Source of the DNA: Synechococcus sp. PCC 6312
GTDB taxonomy: Bacteria; Cyanobacteriota; Cyanobacteriia; Thermosynechococcales; Thermosynechococcaceae
Direction: 5' to 3'
DNA: 64,000 nt
Assembly: GCF_000316685.1 (NCBI RefSeq)
Contig: NC_019680.1
Location: 1,365,501 to 1,429,500 of the forward strand
A program made the position numbers and the translations under genes. This document shows positions 31,072-55,027 of this stretch, in pieces. Numbering within the stretch: position 1 is the stretch's first letter; each line of letters opens with the position of its first letter. The notes beneath the pieces were generated by a model, which was not told the origin of the DNA, searched no databases, and worked only from the letters and a program-made list of their open reading frames with translations.

Positions 31072-34000
31072 ATGAAAAGCGGTAGGGGGCTAATTGCAGG
31101 GCTGTTACTGTGTCTAGGGGGAGCTCCGATAACTTTTTCCGGAGAAGTCATTGCTCAAGTTAGGCCGACTGAATACATTAGTCAAAGTGGGGGCCTGGCA
31201 GAAGCAAATCAACTTAATGAGCAAGCTGTAAAGCTTTATCAACAAGGACGTTACAATGAGGCCCTGCCTCTCTACCAACGTAGTTTAGCAATTTGGGAAA
31301 AAGCTCTTGGCCCCAACCATCCTAATGTTGCTACTGGCCTCAACAATTTGGGAGCACTCTACCAAGCTCAAGGGAACTACGCCCAGGCCCTGCCCCTCTA
31401 TCAGCGTAGTTTAGCAATTCGAGAAAAAGCTCTGGGCCCGGATCATCCCGATGTCGCTTATAGTCTCAACAATTTGGCAGCACTCTACCAAGCTCAAGGG
31501 AACTACGCCCAGGCCCTGCCCCTCTATCAACGTAGTTTAACCATTTGGGAAAAAGCTCTGGGCCCGGATCACCTCAATGTCGCTTATAGTCTCAACAATT
31601 TGGCAGGACTATACCAAGATCAAAATAACTACCCCCAGGCCCTGCCCCTCCACCAACGTAGTTTAGCCATTCGACAAAAAGCTCTCGGCCCGGATCACCC
31701 CGATGTAGCCATCAGCCTCCATAATTTGGCAGCACTCTACCAAGCTCAAGGGAACTACGCCCAGGCCCTGCCCCTCTATCAACGAAGTTTAGCGATTCGG
31801 GAAAAAGCTCTCGGCCCCGATCACCCCGATGTAGCCCAAAGCCTCAATAATTTGGCAGCACTCTACCATGCTCAAGGGAACTACGCCCAGGCCCTGCCCC
31901 TCTACCAACGTGGTTTAGCAATTCGAGAAAAAGCTCTGGGCCCGGATCACCCTGATGTAGCTAATAGCCTCATTAGTTTGGCAGTAGTATACAAAGATCA
32001 AGGGAACTATGCCCAGGCCTTGCCCCTCAATCAACGTAGTTTAGCCATTCGAGAAAAAGCTCTCGGCCCCGATCACCCGTATGTAGCCTCCAGCCTCAAC
32101 AGTTTGGCAGGAATATACCAAGATCAAGGGAACTACGCCCAGTCCGTGCCCCTTTATCAACGTAGTTTAGCCATTCGAGAAAAAGCTCTCGGCCCCGATC
32201 ACCCTGATGTAGCTACTAGCCTCAACAATTTGGCAGTAATATACAAAGATCAAGGGAACTATGCCCAGGCCCTGCCCCTCTATCAACGTAGTTTAGCCAT
32301 ATTGGAAAAAGCTCAGAGCCCCAATGACCCCATTCTGGCCGCCAGCCTCAACAATTTGGCCATTTTATACTGGGCTAACAATACCACAACCCAAAGCCTC
32401 CCCCTCTTCAACCGAGCCTTGAATATTGAAGAAACAAATCTGGCGCAAAACTTAGTCATTGGCTCCGAAGAATACAAACGCAATTACTTAAAAACATTTA
32501 CAGAGTCAACTAATGGGGCTTTGACTTACCACCTCCAGGCCATGCCGAGTTCCCCTGAAGCAGCCCAACAGGCCCTAACAACAATTCTCCGCCGCAAAGG
32601 ACGGGTCTTAGATGTGCTCAGTAACGCCAGCCTCAGCCTTCGCCGCAACTTATCCCCCGCCGCTGCCCAACTCTTAGATGACTTGAGTGCGATTCGGACG
32701 CAAATTGCCCAAATTACATTTGCCACGGATTTGAAGCCCGGACAAATTGCAACGCTAAAAAACCTACAAGCGAATGCCGACAAAATTGAAACTGAACTCA
32801 GCCAGCGCAGTGCCACTTTTCAAGCCGTAACTCAACCTGTAACTATTGCCGCACTCCAACAGAAAATTCCAGCCGATGCTGCCCTGATTGAGTTTATGCA
32901 ATACCAGCCCTTTAACCCGAAAATAGGTCAATTCCAGGCCCCGCGCTATGCTGCCTATATTCTGTTGCCCCAAGGAAACGTACATTGGGTAGATTTAGGT
33001 GAGGCCGCCAGACTGGAAGTGCAACTCAAAGAATTCATGAACAAAATCAGCGATCCCCGCTTGCCCAGTGGTGCCGTCAAGCCCGTTGCCCGCCAAACCG
33101 ATGCCCTCCTCCTTGAACCCATCCGGGCTAAATTGGGAACTCAGGTGAAGCATTTACTCATTGCTCCTGATGCCGAACTCAACTTAATTCCGTTTGCCGC
33201 TCTCGTCGATGCTCAAAATCGCTATTTAATTGAAACCTATCAAATTACCTATCTCACCTCTGGTCGAGACTTACTCCGCCCCGGTACCCCTAGCTCGAAC
33301 CCGCCCCTGATTTTTGCCAATATTGACTATGACCGACCTGGGGTGCCCAGCAGCACTCCCACTCTCCTTGCCCAAGGATCATCATCAGCCAGTGGAACGA
33401 GAGGTGTTAACCAAGTCAGTCAAGAGTTAGCAAAACTTACCTTCGGCCGCCTGCCCAACACCGGTCCCGAAGCTGAAGCAATTAAAGCCTTATTACCCGC
33501 CGCCAAAATTTTTACAGGTGCCACAGCCACTGAAAATCAACTTAAAGCCAGCGTTCAGCCCCTTGTCTTGCACTTGGCGACACACGGATTCTTTCAGAGC
33601 AATGCCGTCCGCAAACCTACCAATGTTGGAGATAGAGCCATTCGAGGAGTTGAGGGAGAAATTTCTGGCTTACCTGTAGAAAATCCCTTGTTGCGGTCGG
33701 GTCTTTGGCTGGCGGGAGGTAATGTTCGTCAAAGCGGTAAGGAAGATGGCATCTTAACAGCACTAGAAGTTTCGGGCTTAGATTTGCAGGGAACTCAGCT
33801 AGTTGTCCTCTCGGCTTGTCAATCGGGGTTGGGGGATGTGCCGACTGGAGAAGGTGTGTATGGCTTGCGGCGGGCGTTTGTCTTAGCCGGTGCAGAAAGT
33901 CAACTCAGCTCCCTGTGGATTGTAGGTGATGCTGGAACCAAGGAGTTGATGATCAAGTATTACGAAAATTTGCTGAGGGGACAAGGACGGGGGGAGGCAT

Positions 34001-39214: not shown

Positions 39215-40663
39215 TCAAGCTCGGCTGGGGCGCAGACGTTGTTGCAATTCTGATTTGAGGCGGCCCAAGATTTCGGACTGATCCAGTGACGCGAGAATGT
39301 CCCGCACGACTGTCTTTGGCCCAGCGACTCCCCAAGATGCCCCATTGGCTAGGTATTCCTTACTCACCTGCCCAATCGTGTAGGAGGAAAAGCCAGCTAT
39401 CCCGGCCTGGGTAATCGCTACCGAAACATAGGGAACTAAGGACGCGCCGCCAGTAGCCGGGGCCGCCAAGCCTAAGATTCCCTTTAAGGAACTCAAGCCG
39501 AGATTAGCTAACATTTCACTGGCACTGATTCCCCCCATGGTCAAGGCGATTTTTTGCAAGAGTTGGGTCGCTCCTTCCCGAGTCATTTCCAGGCCGTAGA
39601 GTTTTGCCAAGGCTTGAATCATCGTCAGATCAATCACCAGGCTACTGACAATATCCACCATTGTGATCGGGTTGAGAGCAATCGCAAGAGCTTTGGCTGT
39701 CGCACTTTTCCAGATGAGTTGATTGGCCTGGCTGTCCCGGATGGCCATTTTTCGTTCGGTAATTTGCTCATTGACCCCATCGGCAAACAAGAGTGTATTC
39801 AAAGCTACCAGGGCTTTGCCTTCTTCCTGAAGCACTTGCAAAATCTTTAATTTCAAATCTTCAATTTGTGGTGGACCAGGGGTTAGCTCAGCCGTGATCC
39901 GCCCATCAGCATGATTGACCAATTTGGGAACGAGGGGAGCCGCTGCCACCATGACAATTTCATTGGGGGTCAGAATTTCCTTCACCCGATCATCCCGAAT
40001 TTTGGCATAAATGGCCTGGCGATCGGCCTCTGGGTACTGATCCACTTTGTTAAACACTAAGAGGATCGGCTTGCTGGCTTGGCGTAATTCCCACAAGGCC
40101 TGGTGCTCCAGCTTCGTCATATCCCCAGAAATGACAAATAAAATTAAGTCTGCTTGCTGAGCCACCCCTTGAGCTAGGGCTTGGCGCGCTTCCCCACCCA
40201 CTTCATCCAGGCCAGGTGTATCAATCAATTCCACCCGCGACTGCCCCAGGCCGGGTAACACCACTCGAGAACTACCGGATGCTCCCCCCGCCGATGTTGC
40301 CCAGACCGCCCGGGAACTAGTTTGCGTCACCCCATGAATTGGCCCCGTCGCAAAACAATCTTGTCCCAGTAGGGCATTGAGCAAGGAAGACTTACCCCGT
40401 CCCACCAGCCCAAATACGGCAATATGCACGACCCCTTCTTGGAGCTTGGTGAGCATCTCTTCCAAACTGTTAAGTGTTTCGGCTAGTGCTGCGGCTTCCT
40501 GGGGGGCTAAATCCAACCGCTCTAGAAGATGATGCAGAGAAGACTGGGCCTGGTGATAGTTTAAGTCGGCCTGGTACTGTTCAAGTTCTTGGAGAGCTTG
40601 CTCCAAATCCAAATCATGATCCTGTGAAGAGCCATCCTTACCAGCCTCAACCATGTTGTTCAT
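39215..40663 (-). CDS. Membrane-associated dynamin/Era-like GTPase with DUF697-like C-terminus
   Basis: 482 residues. Residues 1-75 are coiled-coil-like. The G domain has G1 GLVGRGKSS (85-93), G3 DTPGLDEVGG and G4 NKVD. The C-terminal 170 residues hold hydrophobic segments (LGLSSLKGILGLAAPATGG, VAITQAGIAGFSSYTIGQV) of the DUF697 type, which suggests membrane association. This family is widespread in cyanobacteria, where a role in membrane organisation or division is suspected but not shown here. Confidence 0.82.
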   Translation of the reverse strand: MNNMVEAGKDGSSQDHDLDLEQALQELEQYQADLNYHQAQSSLHHLLERLDLAPQEAAALAETLNSLEEMLTKLQEGVVHIAVFGLVGRGKSSLLNALLGQDCFATGPIHGVTQTSSRAVWATSAGGASGSSRVVLPGLGQSRVELIDTPGLDEVGGEARQALAQGVAQQADLILFVISGDMTKLEHQALWELRQASKPILLVFNKVDQYPEADRQAIYAKIRDDRVKEILTPNEIVMVAAAPLVPKLVNHADGRITAELTPGPPQIEDLKLKILQVLQEEGKALVALNTLLFADGVNEQITERKMAIRDSQANQLIWKSATAKALAIALNPITMVDIVSSLVIDLTMIQALAKLYGLEMTREGATQLLQKIALTMGGISASEMLANLGLSSLKGILGLAAPATGGASLVPYVSVAITQAGIAGFSSYTIGQVSKEYLANGASWGVAGPKTVVRDILASLDQSEILGRLKSELQQRLRPSRA

Positions 40664-40949
40664 CTGCTCTTAATCTAATTATCTAAAGCTTTATCTCTTA
40701 GGATACGACCATGATTTCTTGACCTTCCCCTATGCTGCGGGGCGGATATCATCAACTGCTGCTGCAAAATTCATTAGAGGGGTTGACGATGATTGGCTCG
40801 TGTCTTAGTATATTAGGTGATGGTGTATTAATGATAACTCAAGCTATATCTCTAGCCTGAAAATACACTACTTTTGCATCAGGATGAGGCAGAATCAGTA
40901 ATCTATTCTGTATCTCCTAATAACCGAGTGAGTGAGGAGTAAATTAATC
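40664..40949. promoter_or_regulatory. Promoter and leader region of the porin gene
   Basis: About 285 AT-rich bases between the divergent GTPase gene and the porin gene. Several TATTAATGATAACT-like stretches (around 40826-40840) could be -10 elements. The leader ends in GAGGAGT just before the GTG start. No Fur box could be assigned with confidence. Confidence 0.4.
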
Positions 40950-42725
40950 GTGAACAAGAATTATCTATTGGCAGGTAGCTTGAGCCTTTTAGGGGTAATT
41001 GGTGGCTTAAATCCTGCCCAAGCTGTAACAGATTCCCTAAGCAATGCTACTTCTGAAGCTGCTCAAGTTTCTACAGCTAAATTTGATGCCCTACTGGCTG
41101 CTCAACCCAATGATGTGGCTCCGGCTCCTGTTTCTTTGCCTGCTGCGACCCCAACTGTTGCTGATAACTCCAACGTCACCTCCGTCAGTCAGTTGATGTC
41201 CGTAGAAGACTCCATGGGGCAGGTGACTTCTGTCTCCCAATTGTCTGATGTCCGTCCAACCGACTGGGCTTACCAAGCTTTGGCTTCCTTGGTTGAGAAG
41301 TACGGCTGTATTGCCGGTTATCCTGATGGAACGTTCCGGGGGAATCGGGCTGCCACTCGTTATGAAATGGCTGCGGCTTTGAATGCTTGCTTGGATGTGA
41401 TTAGCGATCGGTTTGCCACCAAAGAAGACTTGGCTGCTCTTCGCAAATTGATGGACGAGTTTGCGGCTGAATTAGCCACACTTCGGGGTCGGGTTGATAA
41501 TTTAGAAGCTCGTACTGCTGCCTTAGAAGCTACCCAATTCTCTACCACCACTAAACTTTCTGGATTGGTGACCATTTCGGGTCAATACGGCGGCGCTACC
41601 TCTGGTCCTGTCAATAATGCCATCAATCCAAACGGACCCATTGGCTCCTTGAACCCAACTGTTATTGCTGGCGTTCTTCTTAGCTTAAACACTAGCTTTA
41701 CGGGTTCTGACTTATTGGAAACAACATTGAGCACTGGTAATGGTGGTCTTGATGCAATCAGCCAGTACAACATTGGTGCAAACAGTAACTTGGCCTCTGG
41801 TGGTCCCCTTAATACTCAATCCTACTTCAACCCTGGCCAATACTATTGGGCTGGCTTTGGACCAACTGTTGGTCTGTATCGATTAGCCTACACCTTTAAG
41901 CCAGTTGAGGATGTCAGCGTGACTGCTGCAGCCCAATTTTATCCCAGTGATATCATTGATACTAATAGCTGGGCTAACTCTCCTGCTAAGGACTTCGGCA
42001 GCTACTTCTTCATCAATAACCCCTTCATTGTTCCCTACGCCATGAACTTTTTGGGTGGGGCTGGTGCTGCGATTCAGTGGAACCCGGGTGAAGGTGGCTT
42101 TACCGTTCGCGCCCTCTATGCTGCTGCTAACGCTGGTCTTGCCAATCCTAACGCTGCGGCCTTTAATACAAGTGGTGGTTTTGGCGGTGATCCTTATCAA
42201 GCCTCTGTTGAATTTGAGTACGCTGGAAACATTAACAGTGATGGTTCCAACAACTATGTTGTGAAAGCTCAATACACCAACTCTCGCACCTTTGGTGTTC
42301 CTGCCAATGCCGGTGGTATCAACTTTGAAGTCAACTTAGGTCAGTTTGGCATCTTTGGTCGGGGAGGTATTGCCGGAATTAGCGATGCCGCTGTTACCCC
42401 TCTCCCTGGTTCTCAAATTGGCGGTGTAATTATTGATCCGGCTTCTGGTAGTCTAACCGTTGGAACCTTTATGGCTGGTATTGGCTATAAAGACCTCTTT
42501 ATTCCTGGCTCTACCTTGGCTGTGGCTGCTGGTTCTCCATTCATTAATGGTGGCGGTTCACAACAAGTTAATGTTGAAGGATTTTATCGCTTCCCTGTTA
42601 GCGACAATATCAGCATTACACCAATCATCTCTGCGATTATCAACCCGAATACAAGTGGTGGTGCTGGCTTCAACTCTAACCCTGCCATTGTTCAAGGTGT
42701 GGTTCGGACAACCTTCAGCTTCTAA
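40950..42725 (+). CDS. SLH-OprB type outer-membrane porin (iron-uptake porin family)
   Basis: 591 residues from GTG 40950, preceded by GAGGAG about 10 bases upstream. A signal peptide ends near NPAQA. An SLH domain (about 98-150, VRPTDWAYQALASLVEKYGC) is followed by a coiled coil (152-195) and a C-terminal OprB-like beta-barrel ending in Phe (VRTTFSF). This is the major cyanobacterial porin class (SomA/SomB). Codon use looks biased, and the frequent CCAGGCC heptamer is absent over the whole gene, which fits high expression. Confidence 0.92.
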   Translation: MNKNYLLAGSLSLLGVIGGLNPAQAVTDSLSNATSEAAQVSTAKFDALLAAQPNDVAPAPVSLPAATPTVADNSNVTSVSQLMSVEDSMGQVTSVSQLSDVRPTDWAYQALASLVEKYGCIAGYPDGTFRGNRAATRYEMAAALNACLDVISDRFATKEDLAALRKLMDEFAAELATLRGRVDNLEARTAALEATQFSTTTKLSGLVTISGQYGGATSGPVNNAINPNGPIGSLNPTVIAGVLLSLNTSFTGSDLLETTLSTGNGGLDAISQYNIGANSNLASGGPLNTQSYFNPGQYYWAGFGPTVGLYRLAYTFKPVEDVSVTAAAQFYPSDIIDTNSWANSPAKDFGSYFFINNPFIVPYAMNFLGGAGAAIQWNPGEGGFTVRALYAAANAGLANPNAAAFNTSGGFGGDPYQASVEFEYAGNINSDGSNNYVVKAQYTNSRTFGVPANAGGINFEVNLGQFGIFGRGGIAGISDAAVTPLPGSQIGGVIIDPASGSLTVGTFMAGIGYKDLFIPGSTLAVAAGSPFINGGGSQQVNVEGFYRFPVSDNISITPIISAIINPNTSGGAGFNSNPAIVQGVVRTTFSF

Positions 42726-42752
42726 GACTCTTGTCTCTTAAGTTGATAATCT

Positions 42753-42792
42753 AAGGGAGTGTCTCACAAATCCGAGGCACTCTCTTTGTTTT
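42753..42792 (+). terminator. Strong terminator between the porin and permease genes
   Basis: A 13-base-pair stem (42753-42765 with 42774-42786, two G-T pairs) encloses the loop ACAAATCC and is followed by TGTTTT. It ends the highly expressed porin transcript. The ATG of the next gene starts at 42793, directly after the T tail. Confidence 0.85.
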
Positions 42793-43689
42793 ATGAAGCA
42801 ATCCTTAATCAAACAACTTGTATCCCAGGCCCTGATGTTGGCTTGTCTCGGGGGGCTTTTCTATTTTCTCTGGGACAACCTTAGCTTCAATTTGCAGCGG
42901 TTAAATCTGACCCCAGGATTTGGCTTTCTGAATTTCCAGGCCAGCTTTTCAATTGGGGAAAGTATCATCAGCTATCGTCCAACCCAAAGTTACTGGCGGG
43001 CATTGTTGGTTGGCTTATTAAACTCCCTACGGGTGATTGGAGCCAGCTTAATTTTAGCGACAGTGATTGGTTTAGCCGTTGGCATTGGCCGATTGGCCCA
43101 AAATTGGCTGATCCGCCAGTTAGCGTTCATTTATATAGAAATTCTTCGTAATACACCGTTGTTGCTGCAATTATTTTTTTGGTACTTTGCAATTTTTCTG
43201 AGCCAGAGTAATACTCGGAGTAGTGGGGGGATTGTTACGATTAGCCAGCAAGGATTGGGGTTGCCCTTTGGCGTTATCCTATCACCGGAATTTTCGGCGT
43301 TGTGGCTGGGCTTGGCGGTCTATACGAGTACGTTTATTGCGGAAATTGTCCGGGGGGGAATTCAAAGTGTGCCTAAAGGTCAGTGGGAAGCTGCCCATTC
43401 CTTGGGGGTGCCGGGCGTTATCACCCTCTGGTTGGTGATTATTCCCCAGGCCATGCGGGCAATTATTCCCCCTCTTGGCAATCAATATCTCAATTTAGCC
43501 AAAAATTCTAGCTTGGCCATCGCCGTGGGCTATCCCGATCTCTATGCTGTCGCTTCCACAACTTATAACCAAACGGGGCGAGCCTTGGAGGTGATGGCGT
43601 TAATTATGGCTAGTTACTTGAGCTTGAGTTTAATTATTTCAGCAGTAGTTAACTATCTCAATCGCCGGATGCAGTTGGTAAGCCACTGA
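42793..43689 (+). CDS. Amino-acid ABC transporter permease (NatG/AapQ type)
   Basis: 298 residues. It is a polar-amino-acid-type permease with the HisM-like signature (YIEILRNTPLLLQLFFWYF and the EAA loop GQWEAAHSLGVPGVITLWLVIIPQAMRAIIPPLGNQ). The length and N-terminal insert fit the AapQ/NatG branch. It has no Shine-Dalgarno sequence because the porin terminator ends at its start codon. It overlaps the next permease gene as TGATG. No ATPase gene is adjacent. Confidence 0.9.
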   Translation: MKQSLIKQLVSQALMLACLGGLFYFLWDNLSFNLQRLNLTPGFGFLNFQASFSIGESIISYRPTQSYWRALLVGLLNSLRVIGASLILATVIGLAVGIGRLAQNWLIRQLAFIYIEILRNTPLLLQLFFWYFAIFLSQSNTRSSGGIVTISQQGLGLPFGVILSPEFSALWLGLAVYTSTFIAEIVRGGIQSVPKGQWEAAHSLGVPGVITLWLVIIPQAMRAIIPPLGNQYLNLAKNSSLAIAVGYPDLYAVASTTYNQTGRALEVMALIMASYLSLSLIISAVVNYLNRRMQLVSH

Positions 43690-49885: not shown

Positions 49886-51205
49886 CTAGGAATTTTGTTC
49901 GGGTTGCTCCAATCGTAAGCGGACAGAGTCTCCATGGGCAGGAAGTCCTTCGGCCTCGGCTAGTGTCATGATAGCTGGGGCCATTTTAATTAAGGCATTG
50001 GCTGAATATTCAATTAAGCTTGAATGTTTTAAAAACGTTTCTACACTTAAAGGTGATGCGTAACGGGCTGCGCCGGATGTGGGTAAAGTGTGGTTCGGGC
50101 CGGCTAAGTAATCGCCCACCGCTTCGGGGGTGGATTTCCCTAGAAAAATAGCTCCCGCATGACGGATTTTATCCAGCAAGTCCCAGGGGGCAGCAATTTG
50201 CAGTTCTAAGTGCTCCGGGGCAAATTCATTGGACAACTGAGCCGCCACTTCTAGGGATTCCACAACCCCCACCAGGCCAAAATGGGCGATGGATTTTTCA
50301 GTTGGTTCCCGGCGGGGGTGATATTCCAACTGGTGCAGAACTTCGCGAGCGACTTTTTGGGCTAAAGCGGCGTTGGTGGTCAGCAAGATTGAAGCAGCCA
50401 AGGGGTCATGCTCGGCCTGGGCCAGCAGATCTGCGGCTAGATGGACAGGATGGGCGGTTTCGTCTGCAATGACTAAAACTTCTGAGGGGCCAGCCAAGGA
50501 GTCAATCCCCACAGTGCCAAAGACTAGTTTTTTTGCTAAGGTCACATAAATATTCCCAGGCCCGGTAATTAAATTCACAGGGGCAATTGTTTCTGTTCCG
50601 TAAGCCATCGCCGCAATGGCCTGGGCTCCCCCAACCCGATAAATTTCATCCACCCCTGCTTCTTGGGCCGCCACTAAAATCGCCGGATTGATTGTTGTAT
50701 TGACTCCGGGGGGAGTGACCATAATGATCCGTTTGACCCCTGCCACTTTTGCCGGGATTGCGTTCATCAATACCGTACTGGGATAGGCCGCCCGCCCACC
50801 GGGGATATATAAACCCGCCGCATCTACTGGGGTATAACGTTTGCCTAAAACGACTCCCTCGGCAGGAAATTGGATCCAGTTTTTGGGAATCCGTTGTTCA
50901 TGGAAGGCTTTAATTTGCTGATGGGCAAGGCGGATGGCATCTAGGAGTTCTTTGGAGACCTGTTGATAGGCTGCATCCAATTCGGCACCACTGACCCGCA
51001 AGGAATCCACAGTCAATTCAACGTGATCAAATTCGGCGGTGTAATGGATGAGGGCGAGGTCTTTTTGTCGCTGAACCGTTTGGAGAATTTGCTGAACGGT
51101 CGCCTCTTTATGAATCACCTGATCATCGTGGATACGATCACAGATGCGCCGCAATTCGGAGCGAATATCTTCAAGGCAGTTCAGGATTCGCAGCATGATC
51201 CCCAT
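49886..51205 (-). CDS. hisD: Histidinol dehydrogenase
   Basis: 439 residues. Signatures include PGGRAAYPSTVLMNAIPAKVAGV, ITGPGNIYVTLAKK, DSLAGPSEVLVIAD, QAEHDPLA and HTLPTSGAARY. The catalytic zinc and NAD-binding residues of the family lie in these blocks. It catalyses the last two steps of histidine synthesis, L-histidinol to histidine. The N-terminus MGIMLRILNCLEDI leaves two candidate ATG codons. Confidence 0.96.
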   Translation of the reverse strand: MGIMLRILNCLEDIRSELRRICDRIHDDQVIHKEATVQQILQTVQRQKDLALIHYTAEFDHVELTVDSLRVSGAELDAAYQQVSKELLDAIRLAHQQIKAFHEQRIPKNWIQFPAEGVVLGKRYTPVDAAGLYIPGGRAAYPSTVLMNAIPAKVAGVKRIIMVTPPGVNTTINPAILVAAQEAGVDEIYRVGGAQAIAAMAYGTETIAPVNLITGPGNIYVTLAKKLVFGTVGIDSLAGPSEVLVIADETAHPVHLAADLLAQAEHDPLAASILLTTNAALAQKVAREVLHQLEYHPRREPTEKSIAHFGLVGVVESLEVAAQLSNEFAPEHLELQIAAPWDLLDKIRHAGAIFLGKSTPEAVGDYLAGPNHTLPTSGAARYASPLSVETFLKHSSLIEYSANALIKMAPAIMTLAEAEGLPAHGDSVRLRLEQPEQNS

Positions 51206-51305
51206 TGTTTAAGTCAGACCAGCAGTAGCTTTGATCATAGCTCAGACACCCGAAGAGGGGGGAGGCTTGGCCTGGCCAAAGGTGAAAGCAGCCAAACCTT
51301 AACAA

Positions 51306-51674
51306 GCAGTGGCTGGACGAGCTGCCGGGATTGAATCCCAAACTTTACGCCAAGAAGTGAGTACCGTCACCCAATTACTGGCTGGGTTAAAGTAAAAGAA
51401 AGAGTTAATTCAGGCAATCTTTCGGGAGGGCGTGATGCGAGAGTCAGTCATTTATTAGGAAACTCTGACAGAGGGAATACAGGAAGGACTGCAAGAGGGA
51501 GAGTCTCAAGTGATTTCGCGATTATTTAGGCGGTGGCTGGGTGATCTGCCGATGAATTTAGTCGAAAAAGTATCTACCCTTGCTATTCCTGAGCTTGAGA
51601 ATTTAGCTGAGGCAATTTTTGATTTTACGCAATTAGAAGATGCCCAGGCCTGGTTAGAGCAACGTCAGTCTTAA
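51306..51674 (+). pseudogene. Relic of a DUF4351-type (Rpn-like) gene
   Basis: One reading frame runs from 51306 to a TAA at 51672-51674 but is broken by TAA at 51393 and TAG at 51456. It reads IESQTLRQEVSTVTQLLAGLK, stop, KKELIQAIFREGVMRESVIY, stop, ETLTEGIQEGLQEGE...VISRLFRRWLGDLP...AQAWLEQ. This is the C-terminal half of a DUF4351-containing Rpn-family protein; the N-terminal nuclease part is missing. It is the second decayed member of this superfamily in the window. Confidence 0.75.
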
Positions 51675-51706: not shown

Positions 51707-52585
51707 CTACATTTTAAATTTGTCGTATAGTTCTTCCCTAACTTCACGAGTTTCAATATCTCTTTTGATGCGTTCCAGGAAACCTTTGAAATCTGGGTTT
51801 AACTTTGCGAGCTTATTGACAGTCTCCCAGTCAACAAAGTCTTTTGCCTTTGCAGGAAACATGATTTTAGATGAATTAGGATCAGCAATCTCAAGGCGAA
51901 TCAGGCCAATACCAAAGGCTGTGCAGAGTCTTTTTAACTCATTGAGAAATTCTTCATTAGAGTCAATCAAAGAGGCAACGAGATATCCTTCATTTGCCCA
52001 TGACGAGTTGGAAACAGCTTGAAAGAAAGACTCTCGTAAGTTGGCATCTGATAACTCTCTTTTGATTTCAAAGGAATATAGTTTAATTGCTGAGTTTGCC
52101 ATCAAAGTACTCACATTAAATACTTCTTCTCTCCACTCCTGAAATGGGAAGTAACAGCCAACAACATCCGGGTGAATCCACTCGTTAAAGCCTTTTTTAG
52201 TTGATCTACTATGATTAATTGTTTTTGAATACACGTTGAGGTGATTATAAACAAAGTAAGCCAGAACTGGGTGTAAATCTTTTTCTAAAAAATCAAGCTT
52301 GGACTGTTTTGAAATAATTTCACTCACAAATGTTTTAGTGACACCAGGTTTACTTAGGGCATAACGTTTTGGATTTTCAGAGTGGATGTATATCTCAGAA
52401 TCTTCACTCCTTAGTAGATAGTGATATAGAGTTGTACTTAGGGTGGCTGTTGGTGTTTTCCCAGAAGAGTTTACAAGTTTGTCATATCCCTTTTCTTCTC
52501 CAATTTTCCAAATTTCTGCAGGCGTTAAGGCCGTATCCTCCTCTGATAATACTTTTAGCGCTAACTCTAGAAATGTGAGACTCAT
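51707..52585 (-). CDS. HARE-HTH protein with PD-(D/E)XK nuclease-like residues (HrgA-like)
   Basis: 292 residues. Residues 1-85 look like a HARE-type winged helix (FLELALKVLSEEDTALTPAEIWKIGEEKG). The middle has a PD pair (P139-D140 in WIHPDVVG) and, 33 residues on, an ExK pair (E173, K175 in YSFEIKREL) followed by AVSNSSWANEGYLVA. This spacing fits a PD-(D/E)XK nuclease core, as in HrgA-like restriction-associated proteins. The gene is AT-rich (two sampled lines 30% and 37% GC against 53% in hisD) and lacks the CCAGGCC heptamer, so it is probably acquired. No methyltransferase is adjacent. Confidence 0.72.
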   Translation of the reverse strand: MSLTFLELALKVLSEEDTALTPAEIWKIGEEKGYDKLVNSSGKTPTATLSTTLYHYLLRSEDSEIYIHSENPKRYALSKPGVTKTFVSEIISKQSKLDFLEKDLHPVLAYFVYNHLNVYSKTINHSRSTKKGFNEWIHPDVVGCYFPFQEWREEVFNVSTLMANSAIKLYSFEIKRELSDANLRESFFQAVSNSSWANEGYLVASLIDSNEEFLNELKRLCTAFGIGLIRLEIADPNSSKIMFPAKAKDFVDWETVNKLAKLNPDFKGFLERIKRDIETREVREELYDKFKM

Positions 52586-52627: not shown

Positions 52628-55027
52628 TTAATGTGATTTATGTAAACTCTTAAGTTGTCCATACATCGCCCAAATCGCCATCGGTCGCAGATACATACAG
52701 GCCCGAAAGGTTCCCACAGCCGTAATCGCTTCCGGAGTCCGAAATTGCAGGCCATTGTCATAAATTTGCCGAATCACGGTTTGCGTTAACCGCCAGGCCC
52801 CGTCTTCTAAACCCATTTGATACAAGAAAGCAGCCAGGCCATAGTTAATTCCAATCCAAACTTCGAGCGGGTGAGTGGCATTGGGTTTTTCCGGGGAACC
52901 ATCGGGTAACAGGCCATTGGCCGCCCCAAATTGACCCTCATGGAACTTCAAAAAACAGACATCATAAACGGTTTTTAAGGCCGACTCAGCACATTCAATC
53001 GGGACAACATCCGGTAAATTGAGTAACCTGGCATAGTATTGGCCACAGAGTTGATCCGCCATCACTACTTGGGAGTTACTATCACTATCCAGACGATAAA
53101 ACTGACCGTTCCAGAGTTTCGCTTGATAAGTGGGGCGGGATTGACTGAGCCAGGCCTGCCATTTCTCTTGTTCGAGTTTTGTATTATTTCCCTGTTTCTC
53201 TAAAATCTGGGCAATGGCCAAAGCTGCTTCTAAGGCTGCAATCCACAGGCCCCCACAATAGGCACTGACTCCTTTGAGTTGCCAATCATCATAGGTTTGA
53301 TCCGGTGCGCCACTGTTTTCCGGTAAGCCATCCCCATCCGTATCAAAGGTTTTCAAGTAATCCAAACTACTGACAATCGCGGGCCAGCAATCGGTTAAAA
53401 ACTCAAGATCCGTTGCGCCCGTTAATAGGTAATCCCGATAGACCAACAAGACAAAATCCGAGGCTAAATCTTTCCAAAGGTTGCAGTCTTGATAACTGGT
53501 GTAATTGCTCGCTTGCCAGGGATGTTCGTTGGGTGCGCCGAGATCGTGGGGCGTGGCATGGGCAATTTTCCGGGGTGCTCTATGGGCTGTTTCGGGATCG
53601 CCTTGGTAGTAGTAGCCAATGATCCGGAGTTTGGGGTCTTCCGTGGGAATCGCTCTGGCAAAGGCCCGCATCACCCCTTTTTCCAATTCTGGCCACAAGT
53701 AAAGTAGAGCAAAAGAACCATAGAGTCGAACATCTAAACTTTCATACCAGCGATAATCCAAACATTCCAAAACCGCATATTGTCCCAAAGGATCAAGTTC
53801 CGATGCTGCTGTCCATAAACTGCCGCCACTGGTCAAATCATAAAGCTCATTAATCAGAGCCATTTTGAAGTCATCGGGCCAATCGGGATGCTCTAAAATT
53901 GGTTGTTGCCAGGCCCCGATCTGTTCACTCCATTTCTGATAGTTTTCTAAAGCAACTTGAGCAATCGTTTCAGCATTGGTTCCCGAGCGATTCCAGAAAT
54001 CCGTATAACGGCGAAAGTAATTAACATTTGGGGCAAATTCCGTCACCGGCAAATCCCAGGCCAGGCCAAAGGGAATTTCTTTGGATTCACCGGGAGCCAA
54101 GGTAAACCGGACTGCCAACGTCGCCCCAATTTGTTCGATATCCGATGCCGGTTGATTATTTTCAAGATTACTGAGTGAACCATCCCGACTAAAGGATGAC
54201 CAAAGTTCCCCCCCATCGCCAACTGGGTTCCAACGGGTATGGTAGAAAATTTCGAGATCATCTCTCACGGGTACTGAAAACGCCCATTCGCCCTCGCCTT
54301 CTTTAATGGCTGTATGCGGATCCCGCTGACGTTGGAGTAAACAACTGGCCTGGGTTTGGGATTGATGAAAACTGTTGTAATTCCCCTGACTTTGCCCCAA
54401 GCGTGGCGTGTAGTCATAAACCGGACTGCCATCATCCCGGATGCGAATTTCTGAGGCTGGCGTGGCATTACTAAACCAACCGACCAGATTTTGCCAACTG
54501 AGCATGATGCTGAGGGTGATCGGCTGATCTGTGGGGTTATGGGCTGCCCAAACAAACACGGCAACGGGATAACTGGTCTCTTGATAGTTATCGGGAATAA
54601 TCGGCGAAAACTGCTCACAGGTTAAACCGGCCTGGAACACCCCCTGATACTGAAACCAACTGCGGGGATAGAGCGCGCCATAGGTTCCTTTTGCGGTCGG
54701 ATACCAATTCCAGGCCCCGAGGGTTCCATCTGACGGCGGTTCGGTACAAAGGGCATAGGCCTGGGAGTGATCGCCAGCTTGTTCAAACACAGAAAACTGA
54801 CAGCCGGGCATGGTTTGGAAAATATGTTCGCCGCCATCCAAATGCCAGAGGTTAAAATCTCCCCGTGAAGATCGCCCAATACAACCCGCTCCAAACCCAC
54901 CTAGGGGCATTCCGTGCCAAGGGCCATCGTCTAAATTACTGGCATAACGGACGGTGTAGGGCTTTTCCCAACCTTGACCAATGGATCGTTGCCAGGCCTG
55001 GGGGGGGATAGAGGGGGGGACTTGCAC
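52628..55027 (-). CDS. GH116 family beta-glucosidase/glucosylceramidase-like protein
   Basis: 799 residues from a GTG start. The N-terminal domain (GMPLGGFGAGCIGRSSRGDF, HLDGGEH) and the C-terminal (alpha/alpha)6 barrel match non-lysosomal glucosylceramidase GBA2/GH116. The nucleophile should be the Glu in NELYDLTSGGSLW and the acid/base the Asp in TYDDWQLKGVSAYCGGLW, by analogy to the bacterial GH116 enzyme. No signal peptide is evident, so it is probably cytoplasmic. Substrate unknown; a glucoside or glycolipid is likely. Confidence 0.9.
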   Translation of the reverse strand: MQVPPSIPPQAWQRSIGQGWEKPYTVRYASNLDDGPWHGMPLGGFGAGCIGRSSRGDFNLWHLDGGEHIFQTMPGCQFSVFEQAGDHSQAYALCTEPPSDGTLGAWNWYPTAKGTYGALYPRSWFQYQGVFQAGLTCEQFSPIIPDNYQETSYPVAVFVWAAHNPTDQPITLSIMLSWQNLVGWFSNATPASEIRIRDDGSPVYDYTPRLGQSQGNYNSFHQSQTQASCLLQRQRDPHTAIKEGEGEWAFSVPVRDDLEIFYHTRWNPVGDGGELWSSFSRDGSLSNLENNQPASDIEQIGATLAVRFTLAPGESKEIPFGLAWDLPVTEFAPNVNYFRRYTDFWNRSGTNAETIAQVALENYQKWSEQIGAWQQPILEHPDWPDDFKMALINELYDLTSGGSLWTAASELDPLGQYAVLECLDYRWYESLDVRLYGSFALLYLWPELEKGVMRAFARAIPTEDPKLRIIGYYYQGDPETAHRAPRKIAHATPHDLGAPNEHPWQASNYTSYQDCNLWKDLASDFVLLVYRDYLLTGATDLEFLTDCWPAIVSSLDYLKTFDTDGDGLPENSGAPDQTYDDWQLKGVSAYCGGLWIAALEAALAIAQILEKQGNNTKLEQEKWQAWLSQSRPTYQAKLWNGQFYRLDSDSNSQVVMADQLCGQYYARLLNLPDVVPIECAESALKTVYDVCFLKFHEGQFGAANGLLPDGSPEKPNATHPLEVWIGINYGLAAFLYQMGLEDGAWRLTQTVIRQIYDNGLQFRTPEAITAVGTFRACMYLRPMAIWAMYGQLKSLHKSH

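Follow-up and report, generated by a model that had tools for sequence, protein, structure and literature searches.

The window analysed here, a 64,000-nucleotide stretch of the Synechococcus sp. PCC 6312 genome (contig NC_019680.1), encodes in a single uninterrupted frame with an ATG start and a TAG stop (genome position C1:1417207-1418085) a protein that joins a HARE-HTH winged helix to a predicted PD-(D/E)XK nuclease domain and that is an ordinary additional member of the already described HrgA family. We posit, with roughly even confidence in the mechanism as a whole, that it is a solitary, horizontally acquired HrgA (HARE-REase) nuclease acting in stand-alone, type IV-like restriction. 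The HARE winged helix would bind DNA and the PD-(D/E)XK domain would cut it through a metal-dependent active site formed by D140, E173 and K175; the HARE domain would permit cleavage where it meets a mark or sequence missing from the host chromosome, and incoming DNA would be restricted by the protein on its own. We regard this as the most likely mode because the gene is solitary and its host is rich in DNA methyltransferases, while the defence role and the specificity for modified DNA are perhaps to be expected by analogy and from context. The features discussed below are collected in Table 1.

Table 1. Features of the nuclease gene, its surroundings and a related operon (window positions unless a locus is named).
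Feature	Position	Strand	Basis or remark
HARE-HTH + predicted PD-(D/E)XK protein gene (HrgA family), 292 aa	51707..52585	(-)	Open frame; PF05066; full-length relatives at up to 56% identity
HARE-HTH winged-helix domain, residues 4-65	52391..52576	(-)	PF05066; winged-helix structural matches
Predicted PD-(D/E)XK nuclease core, residues about 98-235	51881..52294	(-)	AlphaFold2; structural matches
D140, predicted metal ligand (P139-D140 motif)	52166..52168	(-)	D in 11/11, 77/77 and 38/38 aligned rows
E173-I174-K175, predicted E-x-K catalytic motif, central strand	52061..52069	(-)	E173 and K175 in 11/11, 77/77 and 38/38 aligned rows; strand 168-178
hisD neighbour	49886-51205		Flanks the nuclease gene; name from translation
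DUF4351-type gene remnant	51459..51671	(+)	PF14261, E 8.3e-19, profile positions 1-59 of 59
GH116-type glucosylceramidase gene	52628-55027	(-)	42 bases upstream of the nuclease gene
Operon of the G026 relative: short N6-methyltransferase-like ORF, Eco57I methyltransferase, HARE nuclease, T5orf172 protein of 838 aa	L159 7036-12700

The C-terminal half is very probably a PD-(D/E)XK nuclease domain, an assignment of fold and family that leans on structure prediction. AlphaFold2 modelled the whole chain with a pLDDT of 90.2 and a pTM of 0.68 (77 sequences) and the nuclease domain alone with values of 90.7 and 0.88 (60 sequences), and the same core was seen both times. Its elements, namely helix 101-116, strands 119-122, 141-145 and 168-178, helix 183-194 and strand 199-207, follow the helix/three strands/helix/strand order of the superfamily, with two helices, a short one at 147-150 and a longer one at 153-161, inserted ahead of the third strand. 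Sequence and profile searches against the PDB gave no meaningful match and no Foldseek match to the PDB reached E ≤0.001, the best for the nuclease domain being PaqCI (E 7.5e-3, probability 0.99). Alignment of the domain with VIA-align also ranked the PaqCI nuclease domain (PDB 8em1/8epx; 12% identity) highest with a Z of 9.5 (rmsd 3.3, 130 residues aligned), together with 3dnx (8.9), NucS (7.7), EndoMS (7.4), the modification-dependent AspBHI (6.5) and MspJI (5.8), HindIII and FokI (5.7-5.8), HamA (5.1), and Hjc and NucC (both 5.0). We take PaqCI to be a type IIS enzyme with further domains (482-506 modelled residues) and 3dnx to be MmcB-like. A single Z value in this range may arise by chance; nonetheless the list belongs mostly to one superfamily, in that most of its 50 rows are presumably PD-(D/E)XK enzymes and at least one, a carboxylase, is presumably not. 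A search of predicted viral structures (BFVD) returned seven matches reaching E 0.001, one of them named MmcB-like DNA repair protein, a name borne by two of the viral matches overall. The model therefore contains the core whose absence the first-pass annotation had named as telling against its proposal of a possible PD-(D/E)XK nuclease, and the proposal gains from the invariant D...ExK residues described next.

In the model D140 lies just ahead of the second strand and E173-x-K175 within the third, corresponding to the conserved D...(D/E)xK of the superfamily, and both motifs occur exactly where they had first been read from the sequence. D140, E173 and K175, and likewise E101 and Q189, are invariant in every row of three alignments that share some rows: A1, with 11 rows from plasmids and other relatives; A2, with 77 rows, comprising the window protein and 76 homologues from 73 of 80 genome loci and 3 of 66 viral loci; and A3, with 38 rows (30 viral, seven from genomes and the window protein) that hold divergent viral-contig copies. 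Loci L075 and L077, which have a stop in the matched stretch, are omitted from A2, as are, by choice, the Chlorobiota loci L079, L083, L087, L088 and L089. An intact ORF is present in 141 of the 146 loci (63 of the 66 viral ones; not in L075, L077, L096, L097 and L150), and 137 of these 141 carry the strict pattern PD...SxExK...Q...NSSW, the other four all retaining E-x-K and three of them also PD, with the fourth (L157) truncated by the start of its contig. The patterns used in scanning (FQ[AS]VSNSSW with [NAG][EQH]W[LIV]HPDxV[GA] for genome contigs; FQ[AS]VSNSS with WA[NH][EF]GYLV for viral contigs) themselves account in part for the invariance of P139-D140 and FQAVSNSSW; E173 and K175 lie outside these patterns, and the plasmid rows were found by tblastn independently of them. 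Window residues E101, D140, E173, K175 and Q189 resemble E127, D160, E174, K176 and Q187 of Pyrococcus abyssi NucS as given in PMC7343888, and VIA-align pairs model residues 100-234 with NucS 126-233; NucS/EndoMS has a similar E-D-ExK-Q residue set on a PD-(D/E)XK core. A profile alignment (hhalign) with one archaeal NucS_C-family protein reached a probability of only 1.4 and did not align the motifs.

The HARE-like N-terminus suggested by the first-pass annotation is confirmed by a match to the HARE-HTH profile at E 1.3e-8 and 35.5 bits against a curated cut-off of 25.9. Helices 5-16, 22-31, 34-37 and 45-59 and strands 65-70 and 73-77 of the model make up a winged-helix fold whose helix-turn-helix carries an additional helix, and VIA-align of model residues 1-80 returned winged-helix matches at Z 7-8.7, including Z-alpha domains, ASFV I73R and forkhead domains (7viv_A, Z 8.7, 67 aligned, rmsd 2.5; 7c0j_B, Z 8.7, 62 aligned, rmsd 1.9). 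We infer that this domain is the DNA reader of the protein. PMC11037411 describes HARE-HTH as a winged helix with an extra helix and cites Aravind and Iyer 2012 for the suggestion that it reads modified cytosine; according to its Pfam description it is also carried by the human chromatin proteins ASXL. Being small and solitary, with its predicted active site undamaged, a bacterial HARE nuclease of this sort offers a convenient test object for that suggestion.

Kinship with HrgA, likewise anticipated from the sequence, is borne out by plasmid-encoded proteins. A tblastn search of plasmid records gave 27 matching records, 11 of them annotated as HrgA protein (E 5e-31 to 5e-36), and these align with 34-42% identity over window residues 101-273 or somewhat more. 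By sequence comparison the window protein thus belongs to the widespread HrgA (HARE-REase) family, the homology extending over the nuclease half: HrgA proteins (Helicobacter, Campylobacter cj1602 and plasmid proteins) share this half and, where aligned, its PD...ExK and NSSW motifs, whereas alignment to the HARE domain of the window protein is poor for Vibrio, Proteus and Alteromonas, one Helicobacter row has a longer and different N-terminus, and HARE-HTH is matched in 5 of the 11 rows of the plasmid and relative alignment. A single-protein scan of genome contigs gave no match, but an alignment scan did find relatives, with at least 566 of 592 pattern-matching stretches encoding one; the 80 loci kept include Bacteroidota, Planctomycetota, Chloroflexota, Spirochaetota and archaea. 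A further 66 relatives occur in IMG/VR contigs (L093-L158). These may be prophage cargo or mis-called contigs, and tblastn of 50,697 phage records yielded no match with the window protein or Proteus HrgA. Among 5426 E. coli genomes 44 have matches, none spanning 80% of the Proteus hrgA query, and each of the eight matches listed covers 97 bp only. Widespread as the nuclease domain is, no usable Pfam, NCBIfam or PADLOC model covers it in the window protein and the 11 alignment rows scanned; neither a PADLOC-DB family nor an NCBIfam model matches the window protein, and PADLOC on the 11-row alignment produced one weak match in one row (AbiEii, E 0.0032). Surveys built on these model collections would probably miss the domain because no model covers the nuclease half in the members scanned.

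Restriction genes recur beside relatives of the window gene, yet the state usually observed is solitary. Restriction-modification-like genes lie within 5 kb in at least 13 of the 80 loci, a lower bound because many contigs are short, and 67 loci have none with the queries used; most copies therefore appear solitary, and adjacency to a methyltransferase is not obligatory for the HrgA family. Eight restriction-modification queries account for matches within 5 kb in 10 of the 80 loci, N6_N4 methyltransferases occur near L066 and L075, and L087 has one by BLAST only. Pfam families among the 144 immediate neighbours include N6_Mtase and HSDR_N (three each), YhcG_C (three, in two loci), Eco57I and Nmad3 (two each) and ResIII (five); among the best 25 of 180 families, on which the control counts rest, no such restriction family reaches two members in 110 control genes more than 6 kb away, which include one C5 methyltransferase, while AAA_15 and AAA_21 were found in both sets. 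PADLOC assigned REase_I to three and type IIG to four of the neighbours; the families listed for the controls included MTase_II, oMTase and REase_III, with one match each, and several ATPase models (e.g. AriA). The motif [DNS]PP[YFW] is present in 5 of 144 neighbours, of which L024 is false by Pfam, versus 1 of 110 controls. Neighbour ORFs were called by a simple longest-first script and may include spurious ones, and one control (L058:1352-2602) is an hsdS from the same operon as a near match. We reject a distance gradient and claim none, since restriction-like genes are equally dense near and far (15 of 620 genes within 5 kb versus 7 of 323 beyond, all seven sharing loci with near ones). This survey, for which the first-pass annotation had called, upholds its link between HrgA and restriction for some homologues, namely those whose neighbours are restriction-modification genes. 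A gene for Nmad3 (nucleotide modification associated domain 3) adjoins the HARE nuclease gene at L062 11368-12195 (Pfam) and at L065 2865-3248 (BLAST link).

One such association is the operon of the Thermosynechococcaceae relative G026 (Table 1), whose Eco57I methyltransferase matches PF07669 at E 2.7e-39 and whose T5orf172 protein we take to be of GIY-YIG type. Homologues of this methyltransferase lie 46 (L050) and 4 (L056) bases upstream of a HARE nuclease in two distant genomes, which share a homologous downstream gene that in L050 combines T5orf172 with ResIII. This compact Eco57I methyltransferase/HARE nuclease/T5orf172 operon may represent a distinct type of restriction system. The plasmid copies closest to the window protein, from Leptospira and Persicobacter, have no annotated restriction gene adjoining, though a GIY-YIG protein is encoded two genes from the Persicobacter relative.

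Similar proteins have been described in the literature. An A. baumannii hrgA copy has no methyltransferase neighbour (PMC6563999), and in Campylobacter hrgA flanks a putative type II system without replacing it (PMC4615327). HARE-HTH/REase fusions, by description the same domain pair as in the window protein, are noted near Dnd systems, with discrimination of modified DNA proposed (PMC10853773), and are listed among BREX-associated effectors (PMC12839542). The 6mA-dependent type IV enzymes FcyTI and Psp4BI (PMC11037411) also combine PD-(D/E)XK and winged-helix domains, but their winged helix, going by the name of the architecture, follows the nuclease, and it reads Gm6ATC, whereas in the window protein a winged helix of HARE type precedes it. 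Such winged-helix fusion nucleases were argued in the same paper to be type IV since 87% have no methyltransferase among three genes on either side, and the HrgA relatives, most of them apparently solitary, show the same pattern. No biochemical test of an HrgA-family protein surfaced among the open-licence papers searched, which is weak evidence of absence.

Whole-genome matches to four methyltransferase families bear on whether the window gene might have a partner at a distance. The host has 19 such matches, comprising seven to N6_Mtase (six above the cut-off), five to N6_N4_Mtase, three to D12 and four to C5 methyltransferase, 18 of them exceeding the family cut-off, although the N6_Mtase set may include non-DNA enzymes. 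None lies within 100 kb of the nuclease gene, the nearest being at C1:1314298-1315038, which extends to more than 100 kb the earlier observation that no methyltransferase is adjacent; there is accordingly no linked cognate methyltransferase of the kind found in type II systems or in the H. pylori hpyIII-type locus. If the nuclease acted where 6mA or 5mC is common, it could damage its own host, so either the mark it recognises would be absent from the host or a host methyltransferase would protect its site. The second branch amounts to a type II-like enzyme with an unmethylated target sequence, against which a distant host methyltransferase would give protection. The 19 matches would supply candidates, some relatives are encoded beside methyltransferases, and in H. 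pylori hrgA replaces the endonuclease gene hpyIIIR (PMC4687069, PMC6563999) beside its methyltransferase gene (PMC6563999); the window copy differs from this arrangement, compared by description only, in adjoining none. With no match closer than 100 kb, no restriction-modification gene recovered by the queries used within 5 kb in 67 of 80 homologue loci, many on short contigs, and no match in the window's genome to the G026 partner methyltransferase (a search run without a positive control), we consider a type II-like mode unlikely, and favour stand-alone restriction of incoming DNA.

Composition and distribution indicate that the gene is horizontally mobile. Its GC content of 0.372 (GC3 0.331) is the lowest among the 48 ORFs with a length of 120 aa or more that a simple script called in the window (mean 0.504, s.d. 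0.028), in agreement with the first-pass reading of an AT-rich gene. Relatives are found in only 3 of 58 genomes including its own: the window's, G010 (56% identity) and G026 (46%). The latter two are the only ones among the 28 other Thermosynechococcaceae genomes, and the 29 genomes taken from the class beyond that family have none. This is not the pattern of a gene kept by all related strains at one locus with normal composition, which had been set out beforehand as evidence against transfer; moreover, the G010 and G026 homologues have different gene contexts as far as their contigs reach, that of G010 starting a short distance ahead of the gene. A tree of 82 rows places the window protein with L013, a Thermosynechococcus MAG contig that is apparently the one from G010, and with two Chloroflexota and three Planctomycetota (support 89/98, below the starred level), while G026 falls in a separate starred group with Sumerlaeota and Hydrogenedentota. 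We are unsure of the exact placement of the window protein because its branch is long (1.35). The low GC, the presence in 3 of 58 genomes and the grouping with Chloroflexota and Planctomycetota together point to mobility, and transfer between phyla is the simplest reading of these sequence comparisons. The proposal of recent transfer thus stands as regards the foreign composition and the patchy, mixed-phylum spread but not as regards its date: no close donor was found, the nearest relatives being about 56% identical, so the age of the transfer cannot be read.

The same long branch, together with a C-terminal tail about 15 residues shorter than that of the nearest relative, makes weakened constraint possible, and the gene could be a decaying, non-functional remnant of a transferred one, as its AT-richness and the adjoining remnant of another gene might also suggest. 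Its frame is nevertheless intact. Of the 68 positions with 90% or higher conservation across the other 76 rows, the protein deviates at only four, which all lie in the HARE domain and spare the active site; 11 of those 76 rows deviate at more such positions. We therefore think decay rather improbable.

A third alternative makes the protein an accessory subunit working in trans with type I or similar systems, for instance by swapping with HsdR or assisting it. HrgA is encoded between hsdS and hsdR on Vibrio plasmid pVPS43 and a Proteus plasmid (order hsdM-hsdS-hrgA-hsdR), and downstream of hsdS...hsdR on a V. alginolyticus plasmid; type I genes are also the commonest restriction neighbours found, and two strong N6_Mtase matches in the host lie in frames of roughly HsdM length (531 and 540 aa). 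Both matches, however, are more than 300 kb from the window gene, most relatives showed no type I genes nearby, and the N-termini of the type I-embedded plasmid copies align poorly with the HARE domain, which only 5 of 11 rows match, so an accessory role appears distinctly improbable. That the protein serves repair or recombination instead of defence, as its structural matches to NucS/EndoMS, 3dnx and Hjc and to the two viral MmcB-like DNA repair proteins might hint, is highly improbable given a patchy presence, a mixed-phylum tree and restriction-type neighbours, all of them unlike housekeeping repair.

Extending the stand-alone restriction reading from the window protein to its relatives, we tentatively suggest, with less than even confidence, that the HARE-HrgA family comprises uncatalogued, widely transferred modification-sensing nucleases that would work on their own, as a module of type I systems, or as the nuclease of the Eco57I-methyltransferase/GIY-YIG-helicase system. 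If this is true, the window copy would be a stand-alone form reading a modification of phage DNA that its cyanobacterial host, itself heavily methylated, lacks.

Judging by their translations, the genes flanking the nuclease gene are presumably hisD, for histidinol dehydrogenase, and one for a glucosylceramidase of GH116 type. Around the nuclease gene there is no evident target-site duplication, short repeats being the only ones and probably due to chance, and promoter-like sites are in no excess (3 versus 3.1 in shuffles). Among 17 relatives that have both hisD and the GH116-type gene, no empty site can be defined because the two lie on separate contigs in 10 and are separated by 100 kb or more in seven. 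Between hisD and the nuclease gene, downstream of the latter and convergent with it, lies a broken gene of DUF4351 type, presumably of the Rpn/transposase-associated nuclease type; it spans window positions 51303-51671 (+), and same-frame stops precede the open piece that matches Pfam (Table 1). This remnant is a mere neighbour and stands outside the nuclease system.

The heptamer CCAGGCC/GGCCTGG, whose absence from the gene had been taken as a further sign of transfer, occurs 235 times in the 64-kb window against 16.4 expected. It is indeed missing from the nuclease gene, where about 3.2 copies would be expected per 879 bp at the window mean rate (Poisson about 0.04), but this is weak evidence of foreign origin because longer heptamer-free gaps exist elsewhere in the window (e.g. 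40574-42825), and we have rejected it as a strong argument. CCAGGCC looks like a signature motif in the manner of HIP1 with a different sequence; the octamer GCGATCGC, the cyanobacterial HIP1, is absent from the 64-kb window (0.43 expected), and a literature search on the heptamer brought up nothing relevant. At window positions 31383-32019 CCAGGCC recurs at a spacing of 126 bases six times running, pointing to a tandemly repeated unit of 42 codons.
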